Of a DNA stretch of 51,300 bases, positions 17,534 through 43,961 are shown piece by piece. How positions within the stretch are numbered: position 1 is the stretch's first letter; each line of letters starts with the position of its first letter. The translations under genes and the position numbers were made by a program. Source of the DNA: Acidobacteriota bacterium (lineage in GTDB: Bacteria > Acidobacteriota > Terriglobia > Versatilivoradales > Versatilivoraceae); the NCBI GenBank assembly GCA_028875575.1, contig JAPPDF010000081.1, forward strand, positions 1 through 51,300, written 5' to 3'. The notes beneath the pieces are model-generated. The model saw only the letters and a list, made by a program, of their open reading frames with translations. It was not told where the DNA came from and made no database searches.

Positions 17534-18550
17534 ATGTCAATCCCCTCAAAGACCGTCAACCGCCGGACCTGGCTGGCCGGCGCTCTGTCTCTGAGCTCAC
17601 TGCCCCTGGCCGCCTGCCTGAACCGCCGGTCGACGCCTTCGGAAACCACCGCCACCGACTTTTCGCGCTCTTTCTGCTACTACATCCCCAAGAACCAAAA
17701 GATCCTGGTCCGCATCCAGATCGAATGCCGGTGCGAGGTCTTCGACCGTTCCAGCGGCCGCTCCGACGAATACTTTCTGACCGTGCGGACCCAAACCGGC
17801 CTGAGGACCGACCCGCCGTCCGCCCACCTCGATCCGGGTTACGACTTCTGGATGATATTTTCCGGAAAGCATGTGTTGATCCGGCGCGTCCATACCTCCT
17901 CCTACAACCTGAACCCCAGCCGGCCGGCAGTGGATCGGTTCCATTCCAGCGGTTGGCGCCTTCAGCCCAGTCCGGCCAGGTTGCTAAGCTCCGGAAAGGA
18001 GATTCGCGAAGCCGTCCAATCCTGGCGTCCCCTGGTGGCCGTCAGCGAGTTCGTGGGCGATGATCCTTCACGTGGCTACCGGATCGAGTACCCGGTCAAA
18101 TGGGCGGACGGAAATCCGGATGACACCTTCCGCGTCGAAACCGGCCCGGTGGTGCTGCTGGACCCCGATCGGACCGAGGTGGGGCGCAGCCTGGAGTTCG
18201 ACGATTTTCAGTGGGCCTACCTCGACTATCGCTCGTTCGACCGGGTGCGCTGTTTTCTGGAGAAGCCGACCTCCATTCTGTCGGGGGCCACCTATCAGCC
18301 GCCCGACCGCCTTCCACGCCGACATCCGGCCCTGACGGGCAAACAGGTCGCCCAAATCCGGAAGCGCCTCTTCAGCGGGTGGAAATCGCCCCTGCCCTTC
18401 GACCGATTGCGCAAGCTGTTTCAGACCGATCACCATTCGGCCGTCGACCATCGACCGGTATCCACCACCCTTTACGCCCTCGATTCACCGGCTGATGAAC
18501 CGATGGCGCACAACGCGGCTCGTCCCCGGGCAGAAGAGATCGCATCCTGA
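17534..18550 (+). CDS. Tat-type lipoprotein of unknown function
   Basis: This is a 338-residue protein with an N-terminal twin-arginine signal (VNRRTWLAGAL) ending in a lipobox-like LAAC near residue 28, so it is probably exported folded and lipid-anchored. The ATG at 17534 is preceded by GAGGAGA. The body is rich in Arg, Asp and aromatic residues, with no motif I recognise. Segments such as KNQKILVRIQIECRCEVFDR and YRIEYPVKWADGNPDDTF suggest a beta-rich fold. It lies 35 bases after the propeller gene and 13 bases before the sialidase gene, so it belongs to the same operon and may act on the same extracellular substrate. No function is assigned. Confidence 0.7.
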   Translation: MSIPSKTVNRRTWLAGALSLSSLPLAACLNRRSTPSETTATDFSRSFCYYIPKNQKILVRIQIECRCEVFDRSSGRSDEYFLTVRTQTGLRTDPPSAHLDPGYDFWMIFSGKHVLIRRVHTSSYNLNPSRPAVDRFHSSGWRLQPSPARLLSSGKEIREAVQSWRPLVAVSEFVGDDPSRGYRIEYPVKWADGNPDDTFRVETGPVVLLDPDRTEVGRSLEFDDFQWAYLDYRSFDRVRCFLEKPTSILSGATYQPPDRLPRRHPALTGKQVAQIRKRLFSGWKSPLPFDRLRKLFQTDHHSAVDHRPVSTTLYALDSPADEPMAHNAARPRAEEIAS

Positions 18551-18563
18551 AAGGAGCTTACCC

Positions 18564-23266: not shown

Positions 23267-23818
23267 GTGTTCAATAATCCATTTGACTCATTTCACAATA
23301 CGGTTGCCGAAGCCAAGGAAGAGCGCGAACAGCTCGACCGGCTGCTGACGATTTCCACACCGCGGGAACGTCTGCTGGTCTCCGTCGTCGGCCTGGCTTT
23401 TTTCGTCCTGGTGGCGTGGTTATTCTTCGGCAGCGTAGCCCGTAGCGTTGCGGTTGACGGTGTGCTGGTAGAGGCCGGCGAGAACCCGGTAGTGGGCAAC
23501 CGGTCTGTGCGGGCGCTGGTCTGGGTTCGGAGCGACGTGGCGCCGCAGATCGAGGCCGGCATGCAAGCCGTGGTGAAACTGCCCGCGGCAGATGGAGAAG
23601 CGAAAACACTCGATGGACAGGTTGCGGGCATTGCCGCCGTACCCTTGTCCGATGGGCTGGCAGTCTTTGAATCCGCCGGACCGGCGTCTGTGCACCGCGT
23701 TGAAATCGCGCTCGATGAAGGCCTTGATATTGCTTCCCTTGCGGACAGGAAATGCCGGATCGTCATCCAACTCGGCAAGCAATCTCCCTTCGCACTTTTC
23801 CGAATGAGGCGAAATTAG
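23267..23818 (+). CDS. Short HlyD-like membrane fusion protein of the NHLP exporter
   Basis: This 183-residue protein has a cytoplasmic N-terminus (DSFHNTVAEAKEEREQLDRLL), one membrane segment at about 35-57 (RLLVSVVGLAFFVLVAWLFFG) and a periplasmic beta-rich domain. The latter, with VWVRSDVAPQIEAGMQAVVKLPAADG and DGQVAGIAAVPLSDG, resembles the barrel region of NHLP-type secretion proteins. Family members usually exceed 250 aa and include a long coiled-coil hairpin and lipoyl halves, and both are missing here. It starts with GTG and ends one base before the peptidase/ABC gene. It probably bridges the inner-membrane exporters to the periplasm but may not reach a TolC-like channel. No TolC homologue is in the window. 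Confidence 0.75.
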   Translation: MFNNPFDSFHNTVAEAKEEREQLDRLLTISTPRERLLVSVVGLAFFVLVAWLFFGSVARSVAVDGVLVEAGENPVVGNRSVRALVWVRSDVAPQIEAGMQAVVKLPAADGEAKTLDGQVAGIAAVPLSDGLAVFESAGPASVHRVEIALDEGLDIASLADRKCRIVIQLGKQSPFALFRMRRN

Positions 23819-28987: not shown

Positions 28988-30289
28988 ATGAAAAAGGTCA
29001 TCGAGGCAGCAGAATTCCTCGAAACCAGAGCTGGCGAAGACAACGAATTTCGAGCACGCCTGCTCGCAAGTCCGAAAGATGCCATCGAGCAGGAATTTGG
29101 GGTGACGCTGCCCGCGGACCACGAGATTCACGTGCACGAAGAATCCTATAACGCAACCCACCTGGTGCTTCCGCCGCCTGGCAAACTCAGCCGGGAAGAA
29201 CGGGAGGAGGCCAGGACCGGCGCGGCCTCACTCGAATTTCTCAAAAAGACCATGCACGATCCCGCGCCTCCGATTCGTTCCCATGACCCGAAGCCGCAGG
29301 CTGCCGGGGTGCATTCCCTTGCACCCGAGGCACTCTCGAAAGCAGGCCGAGAGAGCATCCGCCGCGGTCTCGCATTCCTGGAATCCACTATCGACGACCA
29401 TGGAGCCTGGCACTGCATCCGGTACAACGTAGCCAACCCCGATGTCCCACGGCATTTCGAAAAACCTCCGTTTGTATCGGCTCTCTGCGTGCTGGCGCTG
29501 AAAAGTTGCGATGAAGCGCGGGCCAAAGCCATGTGCGCGGCTACCAGGGCCTATCTTGTCAACACCATCGAGTATCCGGGATTCTGGCGCTACTACCGCC
29601 ATCTACCCCAGGATCTCGACAGCACGACACTCTGTTCGCTGGTGATCGGAACTCACCCCTGGATTCTTCTTGGAAGGAACGTTCCGGGGATATTGGCCAA
29701 TCGCGACAAGGAGGGTCGTTTCAAGACCTGGATGCTGGCGAAAGACGAACCCAATGTGGTGGCGACCTTTCGCTTCGAAGCCGACCCCGTGGTCAACGCC
29801 AATGCCATTGCCTACCTGGGCGACCACCCCGAAACCAGGCGTGCCCAACGATGGCTGGAGTCCTTGATTGCGGAGGATGGCCTGGAAGGCTCGTCGAAGT
29901 GGTACCCCGACACGGTCGCCATCTACTACGCAATCACCCGCGCCATGGTTCGCGTGCAGCCTGCCCTCGATCGCCTACGTCCCGTTATTGCGGATCGAAT
30001 CCTGGGCTTGCGCGACCGGCAGGGAGAATTCGGCAACATCCTTCAGACCGCTCAGGCGGTGTCGGCGCTCCATAATGTCGGAGGGCTTGAAAGCATCGAC
30101 GCCAGGCGCCAAGTGGAGAAGTTGACAGGTTCACAACGTGACGACGGTAGCTGGCCGGAGCTTCTTGCGTTTGGCGACCAGTCGCTGAAGTGGGGCGCGG
30201 CAGGGCAGATAGGACATGGCTCTGAATCCGTGACCTCCGCGTTTTGCGTCGAAGCTCTGGGGCGCCTCGTCGAAATCCTGGGAGCCTGA
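28988..30289 (+). CDS. NHLP leader fused to a terpene-cyclase/prenyltransferase-like alpha-toroid
   Basis: This is a 433-residue protein. Residues 1-79 are an NHLP leader in the same register as the cluster's precursor: F21-R22, LLA-PK at 25-30, VHE at 49-51, HL-LPP at 58-63, and a cleavage-like TGA at 77-79. Where the precursor would have its core, this protein continues through a Pro-rich linker into a helical toroid (about 115-433). The toroid has QW-like motifs (DKEGRFKTW, DRQGEFGN, DDGSWPE), the segment DPVVNANAIAYLG and DLDST at 209-213. Squalene-hopene cyclases and class II diterpene cyclases use DxDD, and here the last Asp is Ser, so protonation-type catalysis is doubtful. It may be an enzyme recruited by its own leader, a scaffold, or an exported cargo. 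Confidence 0.8.
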   Translation: MKKVIEAAEFLETRAGEDNEFRARLLASPKDAIEQEFGVTLPADHEIHVHEESYNATHLVLPPPGKLSREEREEARTGAASLEFLKKTMHDPAPPIRSHDPKPQAAGVHSLAPEALSKAGRESIRRGLAFLESTIDDHGAWHCIRYNVANPDVPRHFEKPPFVSALCVLALKSCDEARAKAMCAATRAYLVNTIEYPGFWRYYRHLPQDLDSTTLCSLVIGTHPWILLGRNVPGILANRDKEGRFKTWMLAKDEPNVVATFRFEADPVVNANAIAYLGDHPETRRAQRWLESLIAEDGLEGSSKWYPDTVAIYYAITRAMVRVQPALDRLRPVIADRILGLRDRQGEFGNILQTAQAVSALHNVGGLESIDARRQVEKLTGSQRDDGSWPELLAFGDQSLKWGAAGQIGHGSESVTSAFCVEALGRLVEILGA

Positions 30290-30366: not shown

Positions 30367-32763
30367 ATGCCGCAAGATACGGCCATGGGTAAAGGTTTGG
30401 GCCCGAACAAGGCCGACGTCACACCCTACATCGAGCCGTCAATTCGCAACGCCCTCCCGCACTATCTGCCACTGGGCATTTTCCCCTTGATTCTTGTCGC
30501 CGCCATCTATGGCGGCTGGTGGTTGTTGCCGGCCTTTCTCTTCATGAGCGTCGCGGGGCCGCTGGATCGCGCACTGGGTCTGGACGGGCGCAACATGGAC
30601 CCGAGGAACACACCGGAACGCCGGCTGCTGTGGCACAACTTGCCGGTCTGGACCTGGGCGTTTCTGTGGCCACCGACCCTCATTTTCGGCCTCTGGCAAA
30701 TCCTGGTCGCCAATCGGTTCGCCATCTGGGAAGACGTGCTCCTGGCGATCATCTTGACCATGGAAGCGCAGGCCGTATTCGTCGTCGGTCACGAACTGAT
30801 TCATCGGCGTTCCGCCTGGGAACGGCGGCTCGGCGAATTCCTGCTCGCCTCTGCATCCTATCCGCAATATGCCACCGAGCATGTCTACATCCACCATGCC
30901 CAGGTCGGCACGCCCCATGACGTGGGATCGGCTCCAAAAGGAGAGAGCTTCTGGAGATATTTCCCCAAGGAAGTGGTAAGCAACCTCACCAATTCCTGGG
31001 AAGCCGTTCGACAACGCCTGGCGCGGCGACGTCTGCCCCGGTGGCACTACAGCAATCCCTTTTGGCGCTACGGCCTGGCGGTCGCCTTCTGGTATGGACT
31101 CGTGTTCTGGATGAGCGGGATCCTGGCGGTGCTGGTCTTTGCCTTCCTGGGGCTGAGCTGCGTCTTTTCCATGAAGATCAGCAACTACTTTCAACACTAC
31201 GGTTTGCGCCGGGTCCGACTTCCCAACGGCCGCTGGGAAAAGGTGATGCCGCGCCATTCCTGGAGCGCCGACTGGAAGTTCAGCAACTGGATGTTCTTCA
31301 ACATGCAGCGCCATGCCGATCACCATGCGGTGGCATCCCGCCACTATCCGCTGCTCCAGGTTCGCGGCGCCGATGAATCGCCGGAATTGCCGGGAACCTA
31401 CGCCGACATGATGAACATCGTGCTGCGGCCGAAGCGCTGGTTCGAGAAAATGGATCCGTTGGTGGACCAGTGGCGCAAGCATTTCTATCCGGAAATCGAT
31501 GACTGGAGCGCCTACGACAGCCCGATTTCCGCGGCCCGTCCCGACGCCTTCGAGGCAATCGTCGAAATCTTCGGCGCCGCCCCGCGACTCGCCAGATCGA
31601 TCGAACGCAATCCGGAACTTCTCGACAACTTGCAGGACCGGGAGTTCACCGATCTCGACCTGCCGAAAGGATTCGGACCGAATCAGGAATACGAAACGAT
31701 TGCCAGGCGCGGGCTTACCAGGCTTTATTGGACGCACGAAATGGGTGTCCGGGAAATGAAGGACCTGATCGCCGAACTGCCGACGGCCGATGCCGGGGAA
31801 AGCGCCGAAATCGTGCGAAACTGGTCCAACGACAAGGCATTTCAGGTCGGTATGCACCTCGTGCGGGGAAACCTGTCGCCGGACGAGGCAAAGACCGCGC
31901 TGTCCCATCTTGCCGAGGCTTCCATATCGACCGTGCTTGCCGCCGTGGTCGCGGATGTTGTCGACAAGGTCGGGCCGTTGCGGGCGGGTGGGGTGGCTGC
32001 CATATTCCTGGGCGATCTTGCCAGCCGGGAAGCCTATCCCGGAGTGGCGATCGACATGCTGTTCGTCCACGACGGACGGAAGATTGGCGAAAACGATCGT
32101 CTGTGCCGGCGCTTCCGACAAGCCCTGACCGACCTGGCAAAGGACAACCTCCTGTTCTCCCCCGTGCGGCCCGATTCGAATTCCCTTCTGGCGCTGCCGC
32201 TATCCGAACTGGCCGAGCATAGTTGCAGTCCTGCTTCCGGCAAGGTTCCCGTCCTGAGCAGGGCGCGCTGCGTGTTCGAGTGCGGCGATTCCGAAATCGG
32301 CCGCCGCTTCGGTGAAGCCCGGCGCGAAGCCCTGGCCGAATGCGGCGCCAACGAGTCTCTGATTGCCCGGTTGCAAGTGCCCTCGGAAGACCCCGCCGAG
32401 CCGGGCGTGTCCGCATACCTTCATATGCGCGGCGGGCTGGAGGATGTCGAAAGGGCCGCACGATACCTGCAGTTGAGGAGTAACGGAGCCGGTCTCGACG
32501 ATCCGGCTCCGACCGCCGCAGCGGTGTTCAAGGGCGCCGGCTCCGAGCCGCTGGCTCAAGCCGCGGCCATGTGGCGGGACTTGCAGGGCATCACCAGCCT
32601 CATCGGCGAGAAAGGATTCGACCTGGCCGGGGCAAGGCCGAAGGTCAAGTCTCTTGTTGCCAACGCTTGCGGGCACGAGGATTTCGATGCGCTGGAGTCG
32701 CTGGTCACCGAAACCGCGTCCCGCGCTGCCGCCGAGATCGACAGGCTCCAGGCGCGCGCATGA
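30367..32763 (+). CDS. AlkB-like di-iron monooxygenase fused to a degenerate GlnE-like domain
   Basis: This is a 798-residue protein. Residues 1-375 are an integral-membrane AlkB/fatty-acid-desaturase-type hydroxylase. The His clusters are HELIHRR (142-148), EHVYIHH (171-177, followed by VGTPHDVGSAPKGESFWRYF as in alkane hydroxylases), NYFQHYGL (273-280) and QRHADHH (314-320). From about 400 to 705 it resembles glutamine-synthetase adenylyltransferase: FGAAPRLARSIERNPELLDNL, a GlnE-type FLGDLASREAYPGVAIDMLF block, RPDSNSLLALPL, LSRARCVFECGDSEIGRRF and GGLEDVERAARYLQL. GlnE's catalytic DID is AID (561-563), so nucleotidyl transfer is probably lost. The stop overlaps the YcaO start (ATGA). The likely role is oxygenation of the peptide or of a lipid partner, with the second domain regulatory or substrate-binding. 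Confidence 0.85.
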   Translation: MPQDTAMGKGLGPNKADVTPYIEPSIRNALPHYLPLGIFPLILVAAIYGGWWLLPAFLFMSVAGPLDRALGLDGRNMDPRNTPERRLLWHNLPVWTWAFLWPPTLIFGLWQILVANRFAIWEDVLLAIILTMEAQAVFVVGHELIHRRSAWERRLGEFLLASASYPQYATEHVYIHHAQVGTPHDVGSAPKGESFWRYFPKEVVSNLTNSWEAVRQRLARRRLPRWHYSNPFWRYGLAVAFWYGLVFWMSGILAVLVFAFLGLSCVFSMKISNYFQHYGLRRVRLPNGRWEKVMPRHSWSADWKFSNWMFFNMQRHADHHAVASRHYPLLQVRGADESPELPGTYADMMNIVLRPKRWFEKMDPLVDQWRKHFYPEIDDWSAYDSPISAARPDAFEAIVEIFGAAPRLARSIERNPELLDNLQDREFTDLDLPKGFGPNQEYETIARRGLTRLYWTHEMGVREMKDLIAELPTADAGESAEIVRNWSNDKAFQVGMHLVRGNLSPDEAKTALSHLAEASISTVLAAVVADVVDKVGPLRAGGVAAIFLGDLASREAYPGVAIDMLFVHDGRKIGENDRLCRRFRQALTDLAKDNLLFSPVRPDSNSLLALPLSELAEHSCSPASGKVPVLSRARCVFECGDSEIGRRFGEARREALAECGANESLIARLQVPSEDPAEPGVSAYLHMRGGLEDVERAARYLQLRSNGAGLDDPAPTAAAVFKGAGSEPLAQAAAMWRDLQGITSLIGEKGFDLAGARPKVKSLVANACGHEDFDALESLVTETASRAAAEIDRLQARA

Positions 32764-35114
32764 ACGCGCCGGCCGATCCGGCGCGGAAATCCCAGATGCC
32801 AGTCCGGACGGACACGGAACCCCGACAGGGAATATTGGTCAAGACGACCCCCGCGGACCTGGGTCCGGTCGAGCTTCCCGCTCTTACCCCCCATCTGCAA
32901 TTCCACCCTGTCGGCGTACAGCAGACCCTGCTGGTTTCCGAATCGTTCAATACCCTTCTGCACGGCAAGCTGTACTCCGATCTGCTGCCGTTGCTCGACG
33001 GCCGGCGCCAGCAAGACACGATTGTGGCGGCGCTTGAGGGAGCCCACGCCGCCGCCGATGTTCTTGCCGCCATCGTTTCGCTCTCTGCCAAGGGCTATGT
33101 CGTCTCCGGCAACCATGGCATGGACCGATGCCGGGCGGCCTACTGGTCGTCGCTCGGCGCCTCGCCAGGCTGGGTCGAACAACGGTTGGTGGAATCGCGC
33201 GTCGCAGTTGAAGGTGACGACGGCCGCCTCATCCGGCATCTGGAAGCGAGCGGCGCCGGCATGGGGACCGGCGATCCCGGGCTCACCGTCATTGTCTGCG
33301 ACGATTACCTCGGAGCAGGCCTTGGGGAAGTGAATCGGCGCCAGCTCGAGGCGGGAAAGCCCTGGACGCTGGTGCGGCCGCGTGGCATGGAAGCGCTGTT
33401 CGGCCCCGTCTTTCGCGCCGACGGACAAGGACCCTGCTGGGACTGCTTGGCTTTCCGCCTGCGCGGCCATCGGGAAGTTCACCATTTTTTGCGCAACGTT
33501 GCCGGCGAGGAGTCCGCCTTCAAGCCCTTCGCAACTCAACCCGCGGTTCTTGAAGGGCTGTACGGCTTGATCGCCGCGGAAATTGTCAAGTGGCTGGTGC
33601 TGGATGAGGCGGCCCCGATGGACCGACAGGCGATCGCGTTGAACGTCGGCACGTTCGCAAGTTCGCACCATCGGGTCATGCGCCGGCCTCAGTGCCCGAC
33701 CTGCGGCGACGAAGGGATGCGCCGGCCGGATCGGCTTCCGGCCCCGCTGTGTCTGAAATCCAGTCCCAAGACCCATCGCAACAGCGGCGGCGCGCGCACG
33801 GTGGCGCCCGAAGTCACCCTGGCGAAATACCGCCACCTGGTGAGCCCGACCAGCGGTGTCGTCACCTGGCTCAAGCGTACTACCGATGAGACCGATCCCT
33901 GGCTGCATGTCTACTGGGCCGGCGCCAATCTCGGCATGAGAAGCCGGAGCCTGAGCTCGCTGAGGCGCAGTCTGCGCAGCAAGAGCGCCGGCAAGGGCAG
34001 CACACGAGAGCAATCCGAGGTCAGCGCCCTGTGCGAGGCGCTGGAGCGCTATTCGGGCGCCCGTCATGGAGACGAGATCCGCACCCGCAAGCGACTCGCC
34101 CAGTTCGCCGGGGGAGAAGAGGCCATCCATCCCAACGATGTCCAGCTCTTCAGCGACCATCAGCTTGACAACGCGGAGAGCATCAACGCCAAGGGCCACC
34201 CCTACAACATCGTCCCGGCGCGTCTCGATCCCGACGCCGCCATAGACTGGACACCGGTATGGTCGCTGACCCGGCAGCAGCATCGCTACCTGCCCACCTC
34301 CATGCTCTACAGCATGCCGGCCGAAGAGCGCGGTCCCTCGGACCTGGTCGCCGATTCCAACGGCTGCGCCGCCGGCAATACCCTGGAAGAAGCCATCCTG
34401 CAGGGCTTCTATGAACTGGCCGAGCGCGATGCCTTCGCCATCTGGTGGTACAACCGGCTGCGCGTGCCGGCGGTCGACCTCGTCAGCTTCGACGACGATT
34501 ACCTGGCATCGGCCTCCGACTACTACGCCCGCTGGGAGCGGAGTCTATGGATGCTCGACGTCACCTCCGATATCGGCATTCCCACCTTGGTTGCGATCTC
34601 GCGCAGACCGGACGCCCAAACCGAGGACATCATCTACGGCGCCGGCGCCCACTCCGACCCGCGCATAGCGGCCCTGCGCGCCATTTGCGAATTGAACCAG
34701 TGCCTTACCTGGCTGCCGCGCCCCGGGAGGGGCGACGGGCGGCCCATGATCGACGATCCTCTGGCGCTTTGGTGGTGGAAGACCGCTAGACTGGCTGATT
34801 GCTCCTGGCTGGCGCCTTCGGCAGAAGAACCTCTCCGCCAGGCTTCGCAGTATTCGGCGATTGAAACGACGGACACGCGCGAAGACCTGGAATATTGCCG
34901 CGCGCTGGTGGAAGCCAGGGGAATGGAATTCCTGGTGCTGGATCAGACCCGGCCCGACATCGGCATGCCGGTGGTGCGAGTCATCGTTCCGGGCATGCGC
35001 CATTTCTGGGCAAGATTCGCGCCCGGGCGCCTCTACGACGTTCCGGTCACCATGGGCCGCCGCGGGCAACCTCTCGCTGAAGCCGATTTGAATCCCGCAC
35101 CGGTAGTCGCATGA
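32760..35114 (+). CDS. Fused Ocin-ThiF/YcaO cyclodehydratase (azoline-forming)
   Basis: This 784-residue enzyme should convert core cysteines to thiazolines using ATP. The start is the ATG overlapping the upstream stop. Residues ~1-370 form the leader-binding, E1/ThiF-like partner, with paired cysteines GPCWDC (~223) and CPTC (~311) that would bind structural Zn. Residues ~385-784 are the YcaO domain: SEVSALCEALERYSG (~420), DSNGCAAGNTLEEAILQGFYELAERDAFAIWW (~530-562), and GMPVVRVIVPGM near the end. The C-terminus reads LNPAPVVA, a weak version of the PxPxP tail of typical cyclodehydratases. No flavin dehydrogenase is in the cluster, so the rings would stay as thiazolines unless oxidised elsewhere. 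It is translationally coupled to the monooxygenase gene. Confidence 0.92.
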   Translation: MNAPADPARKSQMPVRTDTEPRQGILVKTTPADLGPVELPALTPHLQFHPVGVQQTLLVSESFNTLLHGKLYSDLLPLLDGRRQQDTIVAALEGAHAAADVLAAIVSLSAKGYVVSGNHGMDRCRAAYWSSLGASPGWVEQRLVESRVAVEGDDGRLIRHLEASGAGMGTGDPGLTVIVCDDYLGAGLGEVNRRQLEAGKPWTLVRPRGMEALFGPVFRADGQGPCWDCLAFRLRGHREVHHFLRNVAGEESAFKPFATQPAVLEGLYGLIAAEIVKWLVLDEAAPMDRQAIALNVGTFASSHHRVMRRPQCPTCGDEGMRRPDRLPAPLCLKSSPKTHRNSGGARTVAPEVTLAKYRHLVSPTSGVVTWLKRTTDETDPWLHVYWAGANLGMRSRSLSSLRRSLRSKSAGKGSTREQSEVSALCEALERYSGARHGDEIRTRKRLAQFAGGEEAIHPNDVQLFSDHQLDNAESINAKGHPYNIVPARLDPDAAIDWTPVWSLTRQQHRYLPTSMLYSMPAEERGPSDLVADSNGCAAGNTLEEAILQGFYELAERDAFAIWWYNRLRVPAVDLVSFDDDYLASASDYYARWERSLWMLDVTSDIGIPTLVAISRRPDAQTEDIIYGAGAHSDPRIAALRAICELNQCLTWLPRPGRGDGRPMIDDPLALWWWKTARLADCSWLAPSAEEPLRQASQYSAIETTDTREDLEYCRALVEARGMEFLVLDQTRPDIGMPVVRVIVPGMRHFWARFAPGRLYDVPVTMGRRGQPLAEADLNPAPVVA

Positions 35115-35123: not shown

Positions 35124-36242
35124 ATGGATATTGACCAGGCAGTCACATTGACTCAGGACCGTCTCGCCCAAGAGGGCGACACCATGGGTGAATTGCTCGG
35201 GCACTTTCGGAACAGCATCTCGCCGATTCTTATCGGGGATCCGGAGTGGGACCGCATCCTCGACTGCGCCGGGAATCTTCCGATCGCATTGGGCGCCCTT
35301 CCCTTCGGTTTCGAGCTGCCGCTGCATGTACGCAGGCCCGAGGCGGACTTCGGCGTTTCAGTGGCCGGCGGAACCCGATCGGCGGCATTCTTCCGCGAGC
35401 GCGCACGGACCGACCGGAACGATGACACCGCCAGAGCGATCACCCGCCTTTTCAGGCAAACGGATGCCGAGACCTCCCCTCTGCGCGACATCGTCGGACG
35501 CAAGTTGATGCTGGAATACGACATCGGCTCGGCCCGGCAGGCTGAACGTCCGCTTCCGGGAATGTTCCTGCGGCCCGGCGAACGCCCGATTGTCGGAGGC
35601 CGTGGTCAGGTGGACGATGTCGGCAGGGTGGTTGACGCTCTCGTTTCCTGCGTAGGTTGGGAGAGGAATGACGCCGAGCGGGAGAACGTCGAGCGAGCTT
35701 ACCGGGCGCAGCCGGGAGATACCCGCCTGGATTCGTTCGGCGTATTCCCGTCGCGCTCACGGTCAATCCGACTGGCGATCATGGGCTTCAAGGCCCAGCA
35801 GGAACTATGTGCCTACCTGGAAAAGACGGGTTGGCCCGGTCAACTCCCGGCTGTCGAATCCGTTATTTCACGCTTCAAGGAACGTGCGAATATCGTTAGG
35901 ACCGGGGTGAATCTTGACGTGCGGGAAGAAGGTCTCGGTCCGACGCTCGGCCTGACGCTCATTGTCAAGCAGCGATATACAAAGGACTCACGCTACTGGC
36001 TCGACGGCCTGACCGACTGGGATCCCTTCCTGGATGCCCTGAGCCATGAGGACCGTGTCGTTCCGGAAAAGCTCGGGGCGCTGGCCGGCTGGGTTTCCAG
36101 ACCGACGACGCTTTTCGGGAAGTCCGGGCGTTTTGTGCTGCTGCGCGGCATTCACCACATCAAGCTCGTGATATCCGGAAATCAGCTTCGAAAAGCCAAG
36201 GCCTACGTGTTCATGGTGCTTTCCGCAGCGGTCTCTTCCTGA
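35124..36242 (+). CDS. Unrecognised RiPP-cluster protein (372 aa)
   Basis: This gene begins 10 bases after the YcaO stop and is the last gene of the + strand operon. It is soluble, without signal peptide, membrane helix or nucleotide-binding loop. Visible features are an N-terminal helical part ending SISPILIGDPEWDRIL, alternating strands around PIALGALPFGFELPLHVRRPEADFGVSVAGG, a central segment SFGVFPSRSRSIRLAIMGF, and the late pair TGVNLDVREEGLGPTLGLTL and RGIHHIKLVISGNQLRKAKAYVFMVL. The beta-rich pattern with repeated strands could be a barrel such as a peptide prenyltransferase, or a scaffold, but I see no diagnostic motif and assign no function. Its position and coupling argue for a role in maturing the peptide. 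Confidence 0.75.
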   Translation: MDIDQAVTLTQDRLAQEGDTMGELLGHFRNSISPILIGDPEWDRILDCAGNLPIALGALPFGFELPLHVRRPEADFGVSVAGGTRSAAFFRERARTDRNDDTARAITRLFRQTDAETSPLRDIVGRKLMLEYDIGSARQAERPLPGMFLRPGERPIVGGRGQVDDVGRVVDALVSCVGWERNDAERENVERAYRAQPGDTRLDSFGVFPSRSRSIRLAIMGFKAQQELCAYLEKTGWPGQLPAVESVISRFKERANIVRTGVNLDVREEGLGPTLGLTLIVKQRYTKDSRYWLDGLTDWDPFLDALSHEDRVVPEKLGALAGWVSRPTTLFGKSGRFVLLRGIHHIKLVISGNQLRKAKAYVFMVLSAAVSS

Positions 36243-36373: not shown

Positions 36374-36625
36374 TTACCAGCAGCAACAAAGACCGGCTGA
36401 GACGGCCTCGAGCTGTTCCTCGGTAATGTTCGGATCCGGCGGCAAGGCGAGATGCACCGTCTGCATGTCGCTCTCGTGGACCTTGATGTTCATCGAATCG
36501 GGAATCGTGATGCCCAATTCCTCGCTGATGGTCGTCTTGGGGTCAGCGAGAAGCTGTTGCCTGAAATCCGCATCCAGGGCGGACTTCTCAACAATCTGCT
36601 GCAGCATTTGATCGCCGCTTCTCAT
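36374..36625 (-). CDS. NHLP-family RiPP precursor with core LCCCW
   Basis: This is an 83-residue precursor peptide. The ATG is preceded by GGAAGGAG at good spacing. The leader (1-78) is a nitrile-hydratase-alpha-like leader: FRQQLLADPKTTISEELGIT at 21-40, IKVHES at 47-52, HLALPP at 58-63, and EEQLEAVSAG at 69-78. Only five residues follow, L79 C80 C81 C82 W83, encoded CTT TGT TGC TGC TGG before TAA. The core carries the two residue types that the cluster's enzymes should modify: Cys for the YcaO cyclodehydratase and Trp for the halogenase. C39 cleavage after Ala-Gly would release a pentapeptide. The gene faces the operon from the opposite strand and has its own terminator, so dosage can be set separately. 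Confidence 0.93.
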   Translation of the reverse strand: MRSGDQMLQQIVEKSALDADFRQQLLADPKTTISEELGITIPDSMNIKVHESDMQTVHLALPPDPNITEEQLEAVSAGLCCCW

Positions 36626-36970: not shown

Positions 36971-38833
36971 TCAACCCGGGGTCATGTAGGAAAGATCCCA
37001 GTCTCCGAGCCTGGTGAGAGTGCTTCCCGGGCGCTCCAGCCCGGGAGAGCCCTGGCGAACCCAGGACTGAAGATCCTCGCGTTGGCCCAGGCGCCGCAAG
37101 GCGTTCCAGGAGGTGCTGAAGTCGTTGCGGGAGTTTGTGTCCCAGAAGAACAGGTGGTCGATGCCCGCCTCGTAGAGGGCGTGAGCCCGTTTGCGGTAAT
37201 CCTCCGCATCCACCTGACGCGGCATGAGGTTGAGCGCCAACCGGCAGGAGGTGCCTCGGGTGATCCGCTGAAAGAACCGAGCGTCGCCGGGGTCCATCCA
37301 GGAAACGGCGCCGCTGTTCAATCCCGTCACTGAGGTGTAGGGGATGATGGCGTCCACCAGTCCCTCCCGAACCCAGCCTTCCACGTCCATGGCGTAGTAG
37401 AGGTTCTCCTCCCGGCTGCTCATCACGATGGCCGTGACCTGGATCGGCTTTTCCCGGTTCTGCTCGCGGGCCGCCTCATCCATGGCCTGGCGGACCTCCC
37501 GCATGAACCGGGTCAGAAAGGTGGCGCGGTAGGAAAGCCAACGGGCGTCTTTCGGATCCAGCCCGGTTGGATCCATTCCGTACCGGGATTTGAAGCCCTC
37601 GACTACGGGAGGCTCGTATTCCACCAGCGGCGGGCGCCGATTGTAGAGAAGACAGACTCCGTCGACGGGATAACCGGCGACTTCCTGCAGGATGGAGACC
37701 ACGAACCGCCGGACTTCCGGGTAGGCGTAGGAAAGGCGAGGAGTATTGCGACCCCGGCGATCCACCCCCCGCCACTCGGGATGGCGATCGTAAAACCCGC
37801 GACTGTTCCACTCCCGGTGCGGAACCGGGAAGTGGAACCCGGCCGTCCGGTAGGCGGCGTGAAACTCCAGGCCGGCCCCATGGCAAGCCTCCAGGGCCAC
37901 CCGAAAGGGATCGATATTCTTCCGCCGCAGGGTGCGCCAGCTCTCCGCGGCCAGCCGGTCCCCGACCCGGTAGGGATCCTCGATCCAGTCGTCCGAGGGC
38001 ATCATCCCGATCCTGGTGAAGTAGTTGCAGCGATCCCCGGAGGCGGCTTCCCAGTACAGCCTGGAGAAATCGGTGTGGCGAAAGGGCTCGACCTCACGCC
38101 GGATGTCGGCCACGCTGACGGGTCGAAAGGAGTAGTGATAGCTCCAGGCATCGTTGTGGGCCCAGAGCCGCCGGTTCTTGCCGCCTTCCCGCTCCTCCTT
38201 CAAGCGCCGGACTGCCTCCTCGGACAAGGGCACCAGCTTGATGTAGGCCACCCAGGCTCCGTGGGAGGGATTGCCCACCGAGCCGGGATCATCGGGGACC
38301 ACCCGGGAGGTCCATTGCCCCATGACGATGTCCTGGCCCGTCAGGTCGGCCGCCTTCCAATAGACGTCGTCGACGCGGTACCTCCGGCTCGGATTCGAGC
38401 GGTGGGATATCAGGGAGAAGGCGCTGTCCGTCTTCAAGCGCACCAGCAGCCGGGTGTTGTCCTCGTTGTAGCCGTAGGATCGAATGCCGAAATAGATGGC
38501 GTGCCAACCCTTCCGGTCCAGGGGACAAGTTACCGGAGGCGCCGCCGTGTTCTGTCCGGCAACCAGCATGGTCCCTTTCAATCGATCGGTCTGGTAGTCC
38601 AGGAGTCTCCAGCGATTTCTCCGTGGTTTGCGGGAAAGCACCGACGCCGGCCGGCAACGCCCCAGGTCGGTGAGGTAGATCGCTTCTCCCGATTCCGAGG
38701 AGGCTGCCGCGGACCCGGGTGGCGCAGCCTTCAAGGACGACAGGGCCGCGGAAGCGCCCGATACCATGGCCGCTGCCTGCAGGAACTGGCGGCGGCCCAC
38801 TGTTCCCCGCCCGGGGGCGTCTTGGCTGTTCAT
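36971..38833 (-). CDS. Tat-exported GH10-like family protein (paralogue 1)
   Basis: This is a 620-residue protein starting at ATG 38833, which puts the twin-arginine motif GRRQFLQ at the N-terminus. The frame is open upstream but overlaps intergenic sequence and the next gene. An N-terminal beta-rich region (about 45-230) precedes a TIM-barrel-like domain of the 'family 10 glycosylhydrolase-like' type, with VALEACHGAGLEFHAAYRTAG, a PVDGVCLLYNRRPPLVEYE strand end and the AMDVEGWVREGLVDAIIPYTSV segment. The latter aligns with LDVRAWVEEGLVDSVVPKHY of the next gene, showing that the two are paralogues. Family members act on extracellular glycans, but catalytic Glu residues cannot be assigned with confidence here. 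It ends at Thr-Pro-Gly. Confidence 0.75.
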   Translation of the reverse strand: MNSQDAPGRGTVGRRQFLQAAAMVSGASAALSSLKAAPPGSAAASSESGEAIYLTDLGRCRPASVLSRKPRRNRWRLLDYQTDRLKGTMLVAGQNTAAPPVTCPLDRKGWHAIYFGIRSYGYNEDNTRLLVRLKTDSAFSLISHRSNPSRRYRVDDVYWKAADLTGQDIVMGQWTSRVVPDDPGSVGNPSHGAWVAYIKLVPLSEEAVRRLKEEREGGKNRRLWAHNDAWSYHYSFRPVSVADIRREVEPFRHTDFSRLYWEAASGDRCNYFTRIGMMPSDDWIEDPYRVGDRLAAESWRTLRRKNIDPFRVALEACHGAGLEFHAAYRTAGFHFPVPHREWNSRGFYDRHPEWRGVDRRGRNTPRLSYAYPEVRRFVVSILQEVAGYPVDGVCLLYNRRPPLVEYEPPVVEGFKSRYGMDPTGLDPKDARWLSYRATFLTRFMREVRQAMDEAAREQNREKPIQVTAIVMSSREENLYYAMDVEGWVREGLVDAIIPYTSVTGLNSGAVSWMDPGDARFFQRITRGTSCRLALNLMPRQVDAEDYRKRAHALYEAGIDHLFFWDTNSRNDFSTSWNALRRLGQREDLQSWVRQGSPGLERPGSTLTRLGDWDLSYMTPG

Positions 38834-38868
38834 GGTGGCGGCGATAATATCGAGCGGGGGTTCTGCGG

Positions 38869-40452
38869 TCAATGGTAGCGGACCCAGAGCTCGACCTCGG
38901 TCAGCTCCAGCTTGGCCGTGACCATGGGATTGCGTTTTTTGAGGAAGAAACGGACTTCGTTGCTGCCGGGCTGGGGGTAGGGGCCCTCGGTCAGGTCGAT
39001 CTCGATCCAGCGCTCGCCGAAGGCCACCGGGTCGGCCTGGCAGCGATGCCGGTCGCGGGGAATGGGCGCTCCGTTCAGATGGACCTCCCACTCGTCGCTT
39101 TCCGGGGTGATTCGGGGAACCCCCAACTTCAGGCCAACCTCCTTGACCAGCCCGGAGGCTGCTGCCGCCGGGAGGTCATCGCCCACAATCAGGGAAACGG
39201 AATGGCCGCCGGCCCGGGTGTCCAGCGTCCTGGGAATCTGCCTTGGGATGTCGGCAAGGTCGTGCCTTGCGTTGGGCAGCAGGAAGTAGTGCTTGTCCCG
39301 CAGCCGGATGCCCTCGGGGTCGCCGATCTCGCGCAGGATCCTGCGGTCGTCCTGGCAGAGGGGGTGGGGTCGATGGTTGAAGAAGTTGTAGAGGTAGAGG
39401 CTGTCCACCCCTGCCTGCCAGTACCTGGACGCCGCCGCCCGGAACTGCTCGTCGCTCACGTCCATTCTCTGCTCCAGGCAGGGCGCCACCGTAATGGAGG
39501 TGCCGGAGGCCAGCTCCAGGAATTCTTCCACCGGGACCTCCATGTTGAATCGAATGTAGTGCTTGGGCACGACCGAATCCACCAGGCCTTCCTCGACCCA
39601 GGCCCGCACGTCCAGTCCGATCTGCAGGGCCCCTTCCAGGGTCCTCGGCACCAGCACCTGAAGCTGTAGTTCCCTGCCCTTCTCGCGCGCGATTTCCTGC
39701 ATGCGGCGGCGCACCTTCCTCACGAATTCCGTCATGACGGGAGCCTTGCCGCGGGCCTCCTCCGGCTTGAAATAAAAGGGGTGCCTCAGAAAGTCGAGCT
39801 CGAAGCCCTCGATGTCATAGCGCTGGCAGGTTTCCTCGATGATGGCCAGGTGAAAGTCGTGGATCCGGCTGTGGGAGAAGTCGAAGAGATGCCTGGAATA
39901 GTGCTTGGAATTGCCGCCGATCCGCAGTTCCGGATGCTGGTGCCAGAAGGTTCCGGTCCAGAAGTTCTTCTCCGGTCCCTCCCTGGAGTAAGCGAAATGG
40001 GCATCGTTCATGCGCTGCGAAACAAAATACTGAAGCCCTCGCTGGTGAGCCCGATCGCCCAGCACCCGCACCGGGTCATTCCCCTGCTCCACCAGGTGGC
40101 GGGCGTTCTCCCCTCGTCGAAAATCGGCGGCGCTGGAGTACTTCCCCTTGGCCAGGTCCCAGGCCCTTTCGCCCACCTTGGTGTCATGCAGGAAGACCCG
40201 CGGGAGCACCAGGCAGTAGACGTAGCGGTCGACCGGGGTTCCCGAGAACTGGTCCACCAGGTCGGTGAGCTCCTCCACCTTCATGGGGTAGCGGTGGGGG
40301 ATGAACACCACGCTGTTGCCGTCGTCGTTGTAGATCAGGCGCGGCTTGCCGGTCTTGCTCCGAGTCGTGCGCCCGGCGCCCGGAGTCGGGGCCGCCGTAA
40401 GCAACCCGGCGGCTCCGGCGCCGACCTTGAGAAACTGTCGTCTTGTGGCCAT
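38869..40452 (-). CDS. Tat-exported GH10-like family protein (paralogue 2)
   Basis: This is a 527-residue protein beginning MATRRQFLKVGAGAAGLL, a clear twin-arginine signal. The TIM-barrel region (about 40-380) shows YDIEGFELDFLRHPFYF, where the EGFELDF strand end is a typical place for acidic catalytic or metal-binding residues, then the ALQIGLDVRAWVEEGLVDSVVP segment shared with its neighbour. A C-terminal beta domain (about 400-527, EWEVHLNGAPIPRDRHRCQADP ... NEVRFFLKKRNPM) resembles a carbohydrate-binding or jelly-roll module. It lies 35 bases upstream of paralogue 1 in the same direction, so they form a pair that may degrade one polysaccharide. Substrate is unknown. Confidence 0.75.
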   Translation of the reverse strand: MATRRQFLKVGAGAAGLLTAAPTPGAGRTTRSKTGKPRLIYNDDGNSVVFIPHRYPMKVEELTDLVDQFSGTPVDRYVYCLVLPRVFLHDTKVGERAWDLAKGKYSSAADFRRGENARHLVEQGNDPVRVLGDRAHQRGLQYFVSQRMNDAHFAYSREGPEKNFWTGTFWHQHPELRIGGNSKHYSRHLFDFSHSRIHDFHLAIIEETCQRYDIEGFELDFLRHPFYFKPEEARGKAPVMTEFVRKVRRRMQEIAREKGRELQLQVLVPRTLEGALQIGLDVRAWVEEGLVDSVVPKHYIRFNMEVPVEEFLELASGTSITVAPCLEQRMDVSDEQFRAAASRYWQAGVDSLYLYNFFNHRPHPLCQDDRRILREIGDPEGIRLRDKHYFLLPNARHDLADIPRQIPRTLDTRAGGHSVSLIVGDDLPAAAASGLVKEVGLKLGVPRITPESDEWEVHLNGAPIPRDRHRCQADPVAFGERWIEIDLTEGPYPQPGSNEVRFFLKKRNPMVTAKLELTEVELWVRYH

Positions 40453-40465: not shown

Positions 40466-42235
40466 TCAAGGTTGAGCGATCAGAGGCAGGTGAGGGACAT
40501 CCCCCGATGGTCTTTTCAGGGTCAGGTCCTCGAAGAGAAGCTGGGGCACGACCAGAGATACCACCGCGGACGACACCGGACCCGAACCCCTGAATAGCAG
40601 TGAAGACAAGGAAAAGCTCGGCGGGGGGCGAAAGGTCGTATGGTAGGCGGTCAGGGTCTCCGAGGCGGCCACGATGTCCCGGAAGCTGGACTCGCTGATC
40701 CCCAGCAGCTCGGCCTTTCGAATCAGCTCCTCCCGGCCGTCCGGGAAGATCTTGAACGCGAGGGTCACCGGCTCGAGGTTCGATCTCCCGCTCTCTTCCG
40801 GCAGCATGAACGCGAACCGTCGCTCCCGTGACAGCGTCATTTGCGGGTTTCCGAGACGGCGCACGACGATCCCGAAGTCCAGTCCCCGTTCCTCGACCAG
40901 GCCAAGCAGTTCCTCCCTCATCTCATCCCGGCTCATTCCACCCCGTGGAACCACGAAGAGATTGGAGGGGGACGGGCCCACGCTCCTCCGATTCCCGGTG
41001 CTATTCGACACGCCCGGAACCGGACTGCGGGTCGCCAGCAGGGTCTTCAGAATCCCCCGCTGCACCAGCCGGGTCTCGCCGGCAGGCACGCCCTCGTTAT
41101 CCACCTTGTATCCGCCCAGCAGCGGGACCTGGCCATGGGTTTCCACGGTCGGATCGTCAACGATGCTGAGAAACCTCGGCAGGACCCTGGCGCCCAGCTT
41201 GTCCAGGAACGGGTTCTTCGGCCCGGCCCCGAATCCGCCGAACGGGAGGAACCGCGGTCCGTCGGTCACGGGAGTCGGCAAGGCGACAAGTCTGGGCACC
41301 AGAACCTGGTTCACCAGTTCCGCCGCCGCCTGTCCTTCGAACAGGACCGGCCCGTTGTAGCGGTCGACGAACTCCGCTTCCCGGAGTTGAACCAGCCGTT
41401 CCGCCATTCCCCGAATCCGTCCCGCCAGGTCCGTCCGGTCCGGCAGCTCCTCCCACCGGCGACCATGGGCCGCGACGAAGTCCTCCAGCTCCGTCCCATC
41501 GACCGCCCGCGTGCCCGCCAGAGCGTGAACGGAGACGGACGGCGACCTCCGGGTAAAGGAAGACCCTTCGCTGTTGACGAAATAGGTCGTCCCGAGCCGG
41601 AGATCGGCCCGGACGTTGGACGTAAAGACGCCCGCAATGCCCTTGAAGACGGCTGAAAGCCCCTTCACCAGCGTCTCCACCCGGGCCGCATCCGGCAGTC
41701 GGCCGGAGGGGCTGTCGTCGGTGTATCGGTAAGGCTCCTCCCGGCTGAAGTCGGGAACTTCCTCGACGCGAGTCCTGTTCTGTAGAACGGCGCGTTTCTT
41801 GGCGAATTGATCCAGAGCCTGCTTGTAGGCGCTGTCGGTGGCCAGCCAGACCTGCCTTCTCAGCTCCTTGTAATCGTCGGCCAGCGGCAGGCCGCGCATG
41901 GAGCCGAATCCGGATTCGAATCCGGACAGATCGAAGAAATTGGTGTTGTCGAGATCGTAATCCCCCACCCTCACCTCCACCGACAGGTAACGGTTGGAAG
42001 AGCCTTCTCCGCGGTTGAGCACTCCCCCCAGGCTGGCCGCAATCCCGATGCTCTTCGTCTCATGAACCCAGTAGGCGACGTAATAGGGTTTCCGCATGCC
42101 TTCGAGTTGCAACTGGTCCATGGTTCTCGCCAACTCGTCCTTCAGGGCCTTCATCAGCACGCTTTCCTCCGCCTTCAGAGCAGGGCCTGTCGACAGAAGG
42201 GTGAACGAGAGGACACAGAGGTGGACACATTTCAT
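40466..42235 (-). CDS. Secreted TldE/PmbA-like protein (TldD/PmbA family, non-catalytic partner)
   Basis: This is a 589-residue TldD/PmbA-family protein. An N-terminal Sec signal (MKCVHLCVLSFTLLSTGPALKAEE) is unlike the cytosolic E. coli proteins. Family features are RVGDYDLDNTNFFDL, YFVNSEGSSFTRRSPSVSVHA, PTVETHGQVPLLGGYKVDNEGVPAGETRLVQRGIL and a C-terminal GREELIRKAELLGIS. The HExxxH zinc motif expected of TldD is absent, so it should be the TldE-type partner that forms a heterodimeric metalloprotease with the TldD-like protein encoded 37 bases upstream. In E. coli TldD/E trims RiPP leaders (microcin B17) and the antidote CcdA. Whether this exported pair has any peptide-maturation role is unknown. 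Confidence 0.85.
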   Translation of the reverse strand: MKCVHLCVLSFTLLSTGPALKAEESVLMKALKDELARTMDQLQLEGMRKPYYVAYWVHETKSIGIAASLGGVLNRGEGSSNRYLSVEVRVGDYDLDNTNFFDLSGFESGFGSMRGLPLADDYKELRRQVWLATDSAYKQALDQFAKKRAVLQNRTRVEEVPDFSREEPYRYTDDSPSGRLPDAARVETLVKGLSAVFKGIAGVFTSNVRADLRLGTTYFVNSEGSSFTRRSPSVSVHALAGTRAVDGTELEDFVAAHGRRWEELPDRTDLAGRIRGMAERLVQLREAEFVDRYNGPVLFEGQAAAELVNQVLVPRLVALPTPVTDGPRFLPFGGFGAGPKNPFLDKLGARVLPRFLSIVDDPTVETHGQVPLLGGYKVDNEGVPAGETRLVQRGILKTLLATRSPVPGVSNSTGNRRSVGPSPSNLFVVPRGGMSRDEMREELLGLVEERGLDFGIVVRRLGNPQMTLSRERRFAFMLPEESGRSNLEPVTLAFKIFPDGREELIRKAELLGISESSFRDIVAASETLTAYHTTFRPPPSFSLSSLLFRGSGPVSSAVVSLVVPQLLFEDLTLKRPSGDVPHLPLIAQP

Positions 42236-42272
42236 GAGATTGCTCCTCGAACGCCAGCTCCCGACGCTGCGG

Positions 42273-43961
42273 TTACTCCCAGGGGGCAGGAAGTATGGGT
42301 GCCCGTTCCTGGGATTTCATCTTCTTCTGGACCTCGATCTGTGAAACCAGCACCGCCGGGGAGACGCCGGCCACCGGTACGCCCCCGGACTCGGCCCCAC
42401 AGATGCCGTTGAAGGCTCCCAGGCGATTGTCGGCAGCGGTAATCTTGCTGAACGTGGTCAGGGGGGTGCCGATCAGGTCCACGCCGCGCACCAGTTCCTC
42501 CCGGCCGTCGGAGTGGATTCGATACACCATGACCGGCAGGACGTTAAAGGCATTCGGAGTCCTTCTCCCAGTATAGGTGAATCCCCCCTGGACGTCTTCG
42601 AAGTAGAGCCCAAAGGACTTGCCCTCCTTCTTCACCAGGTCGATCAACTGGCTCTTGAGATCTTCGCTGGAGTGGGGCTTGCTGACTTCGACGAACAGGT
42701 TCGACTGGCGCGCCACCGGCGCCAAGCCCGCCTGCTTGCGGCCGTGTCCATTCGAACGGGAGAACCCCTCGACCGGCGTCCGGGACATCAGGAAGTTCTT
42801 CAGGACGCCGTTCTCGATGACAGCCACCCTCCGCGCCTTCACGCCCTGGTTGTCAAAGCGATAGGAGCCAACCAGATCCATCGACTCGATGCGCCTCACC
42901 GTAGGATCGAAGACGACCGAGAAGATCTCCGGCAACACCTTCCGGTTCACCATCTTCTTGAAGGTCTGGGCGTCATCCTCCTCCTTCTGGCGATGTCCTT
43001 CCACCCGGTGGCCGAGAATCTCGTGGAAGAACACGGCGCTGGCCCTGCCGGAAAGGATGGCGGGGCCGGTGTAAGGATCGACGACAGGGGCGGTCCTCAG
43101 GGCTTCAAGATCGTCAATCATCTCCCCGACCGTCTTCAGGATGGAGTCGTCGCCGGGAAGCCCGTCCGGGGTCAAGGAAAAGAAAGACTCGTAGCGCGGC
43201 AACTCCATCCCGTCCTCGGCCTTGGTAAGAGCGGAAATGAACAGGCGATAGTAGGGTTGCGAGGTTCGGATCTCGGTCCCCTCGCTGTTCACATACCATC
43301 GTGTCTCCACGTTGGCCGAAACCCTGGCATCTGCCGAATAGATGTGAGCGGATTGGGAAAAAGGCGCCGTGTATTTTTCCAGCTTGTCCTTCCACAATGC
43401 CCGATCCAACGCGAGCGAAACCGGCTCTTCCGTCGACTTCTCGGGCTTCTCGGCCGTGAAATCCCCCGCCTGATCCTCTTCTTCCACCTTGATCCTGACA
43501 TCGGCCCTGACCTTTGCCAGCCGCTCGACCGCCTCCTTGTACTTCTTGTCCGTCTGGTACCAGAGGATGCTTCGAAGCGCCTGGACGTCATCCACCGGCA
43601 CCGCAACACCCCCACGGCCAAAGCGCTGGGAATTGCGACCGAAGCGTCCACGGATGGTGTGGGTGTTGTCGAGATCGTAGCTGCCCACCCTCAGGTCGAT
43701 GTCGGCCAGTCGGTTCCGTCCCTGGGAGCTTCCCGAGAAATAACCAAAGGACGCCCCCAATGACACCCGAACATTTTCGGTGACCTCGTAGCTGAGAAAG
43801 TAGAGCGGCGTCGGCTGTTTCGAGAACGCCTCGACCGAGCGTTGCAGCTCTTCCTTCATGGCGTCCAGCACCGGAGTGGCGCCGCGGGCCGGATGGCCGG
43901 CCAGGATCGATGGCGCCACCAGCAGGGTTGCAAACAGGAAGCCTCGGCGGGGTGATTTCAT
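42273..43961 (-). CDS. Secreted TldD-like metallopeptidase
   Basis: This is a 562-residue TldD-family protein with a Sec signal (MKSPRRGFLFATLLVAPSILAGHPARG). The zinc-binding motif HEILGH, followed by RVEGH, is intact around residue 315, so it is likely the catalytic subunit. Shared family segments include RVGSYDLDNTHTIRG, ETRWYVNSEGTEIRTSQPYYRLFI, GSYRFDNQGVKARRVAVIENGVLKNFL and a late GREELVRGVDLIGTPL. It is just upstream of the TldE-like gene, so the two are co-transcribed and probably dimerise. TldD/E dimers enclose the active site and accept only unfolded peptides. The pair is 4-7 kb from the RiPP precursor, but members with signal peptides are common in Acidobacteriota, so proximity alone proves nothing. 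Confidence 0.88.
   Translation of the reverse strand: MKSPRRGFLFATLLVAPSILAGHPARGATPVLDAMKEELQRSVEAFSKQPTPLYFLSYEVTENVRVSLGASFGYFSGSSQGRNRLADIDLRVGSYDLDNTHTIRGRFGRNSQRFGRGGVAVPVDDVQALRSILWYQTDKKYKEAVERLAKVRADVRIKVEEEDQAGDFTAEKPEKSTEEPVSLALDRALWKDKLEKYTAPFSQSAHIYSADARVSANVETRWYVNSEGTEIRTSQPYYRLFISALTKAEDGMELPRYESFFSLTPDGLPGDDSILKTVGEMIDDLEALRTAPVVDPYTGPAILSGRASAVFFHEILGHRVEGHRQKEEDDAQTFKKMVNRKVLPEIFSVVFDPTVRRIESMDLVGSYRFDNQGVKARRVAVIENGVLKNFLMSRTPVEGFSRSNGHGRKQAGLAPVARQSNLFVEVSKPHSSEDLKSQLIDLVKKEGKSFGLYFEDVQGGFTYTGRRTPNAFNVLPVMVYRIHSDGREELVRGVDLIGTPLTTFSKITAADNRLGAFNGICGAESGGVPVAGVSPAVLVSQIEVQKKMKSQERAPILPAPWE

Follow-up and report, generated by a model that had tools for sequence, protein, structure and literature searches.

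An SrpE-type LCCCW proteusin cluster with a predicted prenyltransferase and a leader-tagged predicted terpene cyclase

What does a bacterium make from a ribosomal peptide precursor in which only five residues follow the leader? The question is raised by a 51,300-nucleotide stretch of contig JAPPDF010000081.1 from an Acidobacteriota bacterium (the whole stretch analysed, hereafter the window), which encodes at 36374..36625 on the minus strand an SrpE-type precursor with a nitrile hydratase leader peptide (NHLP) leader and the core LCCCW. We consider it reasonably probable that this precursor is converted to a thiazoline-containing, Trp-brominated, likely Trp-prenylated and terpene-cyclised pentapeptide that is cleaved and exported. 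The prediction follows from two associations: a predicted prenyltransferase and a predicted terpene cyclase co-occur with LCCCW, and the same enzyme pair is found with other cores that contain Trp or Tyr.

The precursor and its invariant core

The precursor, an open reading frame (ORF) of 83 residues, was identified by translation and by a match to the profile TIGR03793. The minus-strand translation begins MRSGDQ and ends EEQLEAVSAGLCCCW before the stop. An earlier note on this DNA had located the ORF correctly and given no strand; the ORF lies on the minus strand, and frame 1 of the plus strand contains an internal stop. The note's description of a 78-residue NHLP leader ending in SAG, followed by LCCCW and a stop, is borne out. 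Residues 6–78 match TIGR03793 with 71.3 bits (E = 4.5e-20) against a family cut-off of 50.9, the leader occupies 36392..36625 (minus strand) with predicted cleavage after G78, and the core (36377..36391, minus strand) is seen both in the translation and in the alignment of relatives. Within the leader, I67-T-E-E-Q-L72 (36410..36427, minus strand) probably corresponds to the L(X)4L docking motif described for such leaders in the available parts of two papers (PMC10858898, PMC12455567). L72 is present in 119 of 119 aligned 83-residue sequences, and position 67 is I, L, V or M in the same 119. When the window's genome (4.49 Mb, 101 contigs) was searched with TIGR03793, two matches were returned, the precursor and the N-terminus of a 433-residue protein described below.

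LCCCW is the C-terminus of the query and of each of the 120 top-ranking matches among 676 in the database (121/121); the remaining 556 matches fall outside this count. A scan of species genomes gave 166 confirmed relatives. The top 80 loci were retained, and their precursors are 87–100% identical over 83 residues. Together with the window, these loci contain 80 distinct coding sequences and 10 nucleotide versions of the core that encode a single peptide. The combination of many nucleotide versions with one peptide points to purifying selection on the LCCCW peptide, and this conservation rules out a chance or truncated ORF. There is also no sign of the 3´ frameshift that the earlier note had allowed for, in which the real core would be longer, since all 121 sequences and all kept loci end at the same residue.

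The core is already published and is not new: SrpE from srp clusters of sponge microbiomes has the identical sequence, and its core is cyclised by the YcaO enzyme SrpC and brominated on Trp by SrpI, as described in the available text of PMC10858898 and PMC10286304. Co-expression of srpC and srpE in Escherichia coli yields only a mixture of partly modified products (PMC10286304, in part). In a published MprEX-LCCCW chimera, MprC and MprD have converted the core to the trithiazol(in)e form. SrpI brominates indole-6 in a leader-dependent manner and does not chlorinate the substrates tried (PMC10286304, in part).

The window encodes counterparts of both enzymes. The SrpC-type YcaO cyclodehydratase (32760..35114, plus strand) carries a fused TOMM leader-binding region (TIGR03882) and matches PF02624 with 322 bits and TIGR03604 with 280.5 bits (cut-off 219.25). 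Its ATG start at 32760, which overlaps the stop of the preceding gene, was chosen from the ORF, and the search was run from 32763. The SrpI-type flavin-dependent Trp halogenase (21779..23053, minus strand; Trp_halogenase, 153 bits) has a Lys followed by Tyr at +18 and +26, the spacing of the residues reported for SrpI, Lys84, Tyr102 and Tyr110 (PMC10286304, in part). Numbering this Lys as 84 places the probable start on a GTG codon at 23053. The earlier proposal that a YcaO enzyme acts on Cys and a flavin halogenase on Trp thus agrees with what SrpC and SrpI are reported to do on the same core. Its halogenation of Trp stands and its choice of bromine or chlorine narrows, since the enzyme published for LCCCW brominates and chlorination was not observed in the available parts of PMC10286304 and PMC12615548.

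A predicted prenyltransferase and a predicted terpene cyclase beside the core

Two further proteins of the cassette distinguish it from this published picture. The first, of 372 residues (35124..36242, plus strand), is modelled as a five-repeat alpha-beta-beta-alpha (ABBA) barrel, as in the ABBA/dimethylallyltryptophan synthase (DMATS) aromatic prenyltransferases. The model and alignment comprise 61 of 65 full-length orthologues and the window protein. Most of the structural neighbours listed are indole or Trp enzymes. The protein has no PDB sequence match at E ≤ 1 and no Pfam family. Sequence alone thus did not identify it as an ABBA/DMATS member, and the protein is classed by its fold; that it folds like indole prenyltransferases is a confident prediction of the model. 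Glu64 of a GFE motif (35313..35315, plus strand), which the model places on strand 1 of the barrel, is invariant in 62 aligned sequences. By comparison with TleC Glu106 and MpnD Glu89 (PMC4786772, in part), it is a candidate for the residue that faces indole N1.

The second protein, of 433 residues (28988..30289, plus strand), fuses an NHLP domain (about residues 1–71) to a predicted class II terpene cyclase (about residues 110–433). Modelled and aligned with 52 of 54 orthologues, it shows an alpha/alpha toroid and a DxD(D/T) acid motif as in class II terpene cyclases; this fold is predicted with confidence, and the catalytic role is putative. DLDST (29612..29626, plus strand; D209 and D211) aligns as the counterpart of the DxDD/DxDTT acid motif. 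DLDS[TS] occurs in 55 of 55 aligned orthologues, and D209, D211 and S212 are invariant in 53 of 53. The N-terminal domain is equally general (PF02979 in 53/53 members at E ≤ 0.01). It most likely serves in docking or assembly, because Arg stands where the docking motif of the precursor has L72.

Both proteins co-occur with LCCCW. In 61 related genomes the precursor query matched 10, seven of them near-identically (E ≤ 2e-46), and all seven end in LCCCW. The 372-residue protein was found in exactly these seven and in 0 of the 54 others, with one genome (G002) counted on a 31-residue piece at a contig end. Four of the seven, and none of the 54 others, have the full 433-residue protein; in the three remaining LCCCW genomes the contig ends before the place of the gene, which was not found on other contigs either. 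A wider survey used the 41 loci whose 10-kb flanks are complete (tblastn, at least 45% identity over at least 60 residues; far genes lie beyond 10 kb). It recovered the 372-residue protein at 37 loci, the 433-residue protein at 39, YcaO at 39 and the halogenase at 27. For 50 of the 80 loci, chosen mostly for longer contigs, the whole genome was searched; the 433-residue protein was found in 50 of 50 (in one of them split between two frames) and an SrpI-type halogenase in 49. The latter is in pieces in G075, G089 and G099 and carries one stop in G090. The one genome in which no SrpI-type halogenase was found is a chromosome-level Pseudomonadales genome (G098, locus L070) that has the LCCCW precursor, the prenyltransferase and the cyclase.

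By analogy with SrpC and SrpI, and from the predicted folds, a pathway can be proposed. YcaO would turn the three core Cys residues into thiazolines, and the SrpI-type halogenase would brominate the C-terminal Trp. The predicted ABBA-fold enzyme would likely prenylate Trp as well, and the NHLP-tagged cyclase would then cyclise the attached prenyl chain. Cleavage, presumably after SAG, and export would follow. The acceptor, the chain length, cyclisation on the attached chain and the order of these steps are as we infer them.

The enzyme pair beyond LCCCW and the competing readings

Relatives of the cyclase without the leader domain led to further NHLP clusters. A leaderless-cyclase query matched 9 of 289 sampled alphaproteobacteria (one weakly, several of srp type) and 2 of 274 sampled gammaproteobacteria, each sample including the genome around which it was drawn. 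Six kinds of non-CCC cluster combine prenyltransferase, cyclase and NHLP precursor. Three have the cores CDGSTDYAWDC (L094, with a distant halogenase of 25% identity), FAPGGDSW (L095) and IAPTDDSY (L096). Two show a weak prenyltransferase match and have the cores xVDWNNLxFPM (L109–L111, of which L111 was unreported by the srp profile) and VCWSNCSDMGP (L123). The sixth, in genome G371, is an array of 11 precursors whose leaders resemble one another and which carry 10 distinct cores (L113:780-6393 and L108, G371:C1:1018000-1031500), among them GNWNIAADW, YNPFRVNW and FVGSLGNARSVFNW. Its precursors flank one prenyltransferase; beyond them lie the transporters and, at a distance of about 9 kb, the cyclase. 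Trp is C-terminal in 11 of 11. The array can be regarded as a natural library, with hypervariable cores, a fixed C-terminal Trp and one predicted ABBA prenyltransferase. An SrpI-type halogenase was not found in the G371 genome, nor in two others with non-CCC clusters (G272 and G465). A script check of the cyclases across these clusters gave the motifs DLDST, EVDST, DADTT, DLDSL, DCDDT and DTDDT.

All 18 cores of the two-enzyme clusters contain W or Y, which is C-terminal in 13. None of 22 control cores ends in W or Y, several having an internal W; these came from clusters with neither enzyme within the 11–12 kb fetched, in genomes that bear both in another cluster (G143, G272 and G370). Counted by kind of cluster the figures are 3/6 and 0/2, and the p of 7e-7 for individual cores is no true probability, since independence is assumed for 11 cores that share one genome. 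Excluded from the count were L124, L125, L127 and L128, where no short core could be used (a weak match, no match or nitrile-hydratase-like long frames), and the CCC-type L121 and L122; L126 overlaps L094 and was counted once.

Some observations weigh against Trp prenylation. Two divergent CCC clusters, with the cores LCCCF (L121/L129, G395:C73) and RCCC (L122/L131, G397:C40), keep the prenyltransferase and YcaO. The genomes G395 and G397, of unestablished completeness and placed in the cyclase-searched sample by their handle numbers, gave no halogenase match and no cyclase match. The halogenase and the cyclase thus go with Trp, and the prenyltransferase does not strictly do so, which leaves Trp as prenyl acceptor unproven. 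Either the prenyltransferase changed its acceptor in the LCCCF and RCCC clusters, or Trp is not the acceptor in any CCC cluster. The idea that Glu64 is lost where the core has no aromatic residue was dropped: of the two enzyme copies in the RCCC cluster, that of L122 has lost the Glu and that of L131 keeps it.

The retention of the prenyltransferase with LCCCF and RCCC speaks for a different acceptor, some feature that LCCCW, LCCCF and RCCC have in common; a Cys thiol, an azoline or the residue at either end of the core are examples. An ABBA-type histidine prenyltransferase, FunA, is known, and enzymes acting on Arg, Ser, Thr and Tyr are named in reference titles of PMC13290415 (available in part). 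Such a modification of the peptide outside Trp is nevertheless unlikely in our judgement: halogenase and cyclase matches are absent where Trp is missing, the hypervariable G371 cores keep their C-terminal Trp, and the structural neighbours listed for the 372-residue model are mostly indole or Trp enzymes. Similar doubt attaches to the reading in which the published picture is complete, the product being a brominated tri-thiazol(in)e pentapeptide only and the prenyltransferase-like and cyclase-like proteins being noncatalytic or scaffolds. The published work, as available, shows only cyclodehydration and bromination for LCCCW (PMC10858898, PMC10286304), and the cyclase bears a leader fold, as a scaffold might have. 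Yet DLDS[TS] is kept in every aligned cyclase (55/55) and Glu64 in every aligned prenyltransferase (62/62), and both enzymes recur with other NHLP cores, including those of G371, G272 and G465, where no SrpI-type halogenase was matched. Finally, the closest fold match of the 433-residue model is drimenol synthase, whose structure was determined with free farnesyl diphosphate. This would suit terpene genes that are carried along with the cluster and yield a small terpenoid of their own, unrelated to the peptide. We rate such a separate terpenoid as very unlikely, given the NHLP-type domain fused to every srp cyclase examined (PF02979, 53/53 at E ≤ 0.01) and the recurrence of the enzyme pair in clusters with NHLP precursors.

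The preferred reading is therefore that of a thiazoline-containing, brominated pentapeptide carrying a cyclised prenyl chain. A bolder version seems to us evenly balanced: that the very widespread srp cluster makes a meroterpenoid, a trithiazoline 6-bromo-Trp pentapeptide with a polycyclic terpene on Trp, and that prenyltransferase and cyclase together mark out a broader class of terpenylated proteusins, among them the array, in which a single enzyme pair would decorate the constant C-terminal Trp of hypervariable cores. The earlier note's placing of the product among the most compact ribosomal peptides probably fails, because the cassette also holds the predicted prenyltransferase and terpene cyclase, which that note had missed.

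The remaining cassette, its hosts and known systems

An NHLP-system ABC transporter with a C39 peptidase (23820..26030, plus strand; TIGR03796, 855.2 bits, cut-off 853.3) is predicted to cut and export the peptide. It is followed by a permease/ATPase ABC transporter similar to TIGR03797 (26030..28960, plus strand; 659.7 bits, below the curated cut-off of 709.4), for which the ATG at 26030 was chosen from the ORF and the search was run from 26024. Among the 41 full-flank loci the second ABC protein is present in 40 and the first in 24. A FA_desaturase domain of the membrane di-iron oxygenase type is fused to a GlnE-like nucleotidyltransferase region (30367..32763, plus strand), a combination that recurs at 31 of these loci. 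Directly upstream of the C39 transporter lies a conserved ORF of 183 residues (23267..23818, plus strand) with no Pfam match, present at 24 of 80 loci, many of which have cut flanks. A TldD/PmbA pair (40466..43961, minus strand) was considered as the leader protease and rejected: it was found at 2 of the 80 loci, again many with cut flanks, and since these two (L013 and L017) both belong to the window's genus it is probably not part of the cassette. The cluster is flanked at 36971..40452 (minus strand) and 16407..19757 (plus strand) by BNR-repeat proteins and a pair of GHL10-like glycosyl hydrolases, one of which falls slightly short of its Pfam cut-off.

The hosts are diverse. By a hand count of record titles, the 80 loci comprise 25 Alphaproteobacteria, 25 Gammaproteobacteria, 1 Deltaproteobacteria, 1 Proteobacteria, 14 Acidobacteriota and 1 Candidatus Versatilivorator, 8 Gemmatimonadota, 2 Nitrospinota, and one each of Rhodothermales, Binatia and "bacterium". 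NCBI names assign 79 of the 80 to seven phyla: 51 to Pseudomonadota, 15 to Acidobacteriota, 8 to Gemmatimonadota, 2 to Nitrospinota, and a single locus to each of Rhodothermota, Myxococcota and Candidatus Binatota. The remaining locus carries no phylum name. The nearest named relative is Candidatus Versatilivorator (Acidobacteriota, locus L013), whose precursor is 100% identical. In a tree of the 372-residue protein (63 rows, six class or phylum labels), 16 label changes were counted, with a minimum of 5 and a shuffled mean of 31.3, and an Acidobacteriota row pairs with a Binatota row at 100/99 as the clearest cross-phylum case. Movement between phyla is suggested rather than shown, because good support is confined to 25 of the 60 inner branches and the bootstrap had yet to converge.

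The natural product of srp clusters is apparently unreported, though seven named phyla share a nearly unchanged precursor gene. The calculated [M+H]+ of the bare brominated trithiazoline peptide is 651.0876/653.0855, and with an added C10, C15 or C20 chain it would be 787.2128, 855.2754 or 923.3380 (79Br), less 2.016 Da for each thiazoline oxidised to thiazole. Should the pathway include prenylation and terpene cyclisation, hunting for the bare bromo-trithiazoline peptide targets the wrong mass, prenyl-plus-cyclase tailoring extends to proteusins, including a halogenated version, and the question arises why a cyclase carries a leader domain.

The founding srp paper (JACS 2021) is said to have described srp clusters in sponges; as cited, it calls them in its title highly distributed in the microbiomes of marine sponges. 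The published srp system and the window share the NHLP leader, the LCCCW core, the YcaO enzyme and a Trp halogenase with the same Lys/Tyr spacing. They differ in that neither prenyltransferase nor terpene cyclase is mentioned in the available parts of the srp accounts (PMC10858898, PMC10286304). A 2022 survey mentions srp-like clusters in sponges, and the word prenyl is absent from its available text (PMC9426513). Likewise, the available text of a paper on lanthipeptide prenylation mentions neither Srp nor a cyclase (PMC12715784). A literature search did not find a proteusin, a prenyltransferase and a terpene cyclase together, nor, among the titles inspected, any work on srp prenylation, although the pair may be noted in the founding srp paper or in the main paper on terpenoid RiPPs (ribosomally synthesised and post-translationally modified peptides). 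Read as a whole, the cluster would be that of a brominated, thiazoline-containing and predicted terpenylated proteusin.

Its parts have separate precedents. MstE and drimenol synthase share the class II terpene cyclase fold and a DxD acid motif with the 433-residue protein. We know of no NHLP domain on cyclases of either type, whose substrates, by PDB titles, are prenylated benzoates or farnesyl diphosphate. As in the window, the precursor PalX is of NHLP type with a conserved C-terminal Trp, which is prenylated by PalQ (PMC10853753, in part). In contrast to the 372-residue protein, PalQ is of the isoprene-synthase type and not ABBA, and the three genes given for the pal cluster include none for a cyclase, a YcaO enzyme or a halogenase. 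A parallel in chemistry is provided by NctPC and ChrPC, which prenylate Trp and then cyclise the chain (PMC13290415, a review available in part, on Hubrich 2024), the same succession as predicted here. NctPC combines an MstE-like cyclase domain with an ABBA prenyltransferase domain, like the predicted 372-residue fold. Whereas NctPC and ChrPC are single prenyltransferase-cyclase polypeptides, the window encodes the two activities, as predicted, in separate genes (28988..30289 and 35124..36242), and it adds the fusion of the cyclase to an NHLP domain, a YcaO enzyme and a halogenase.
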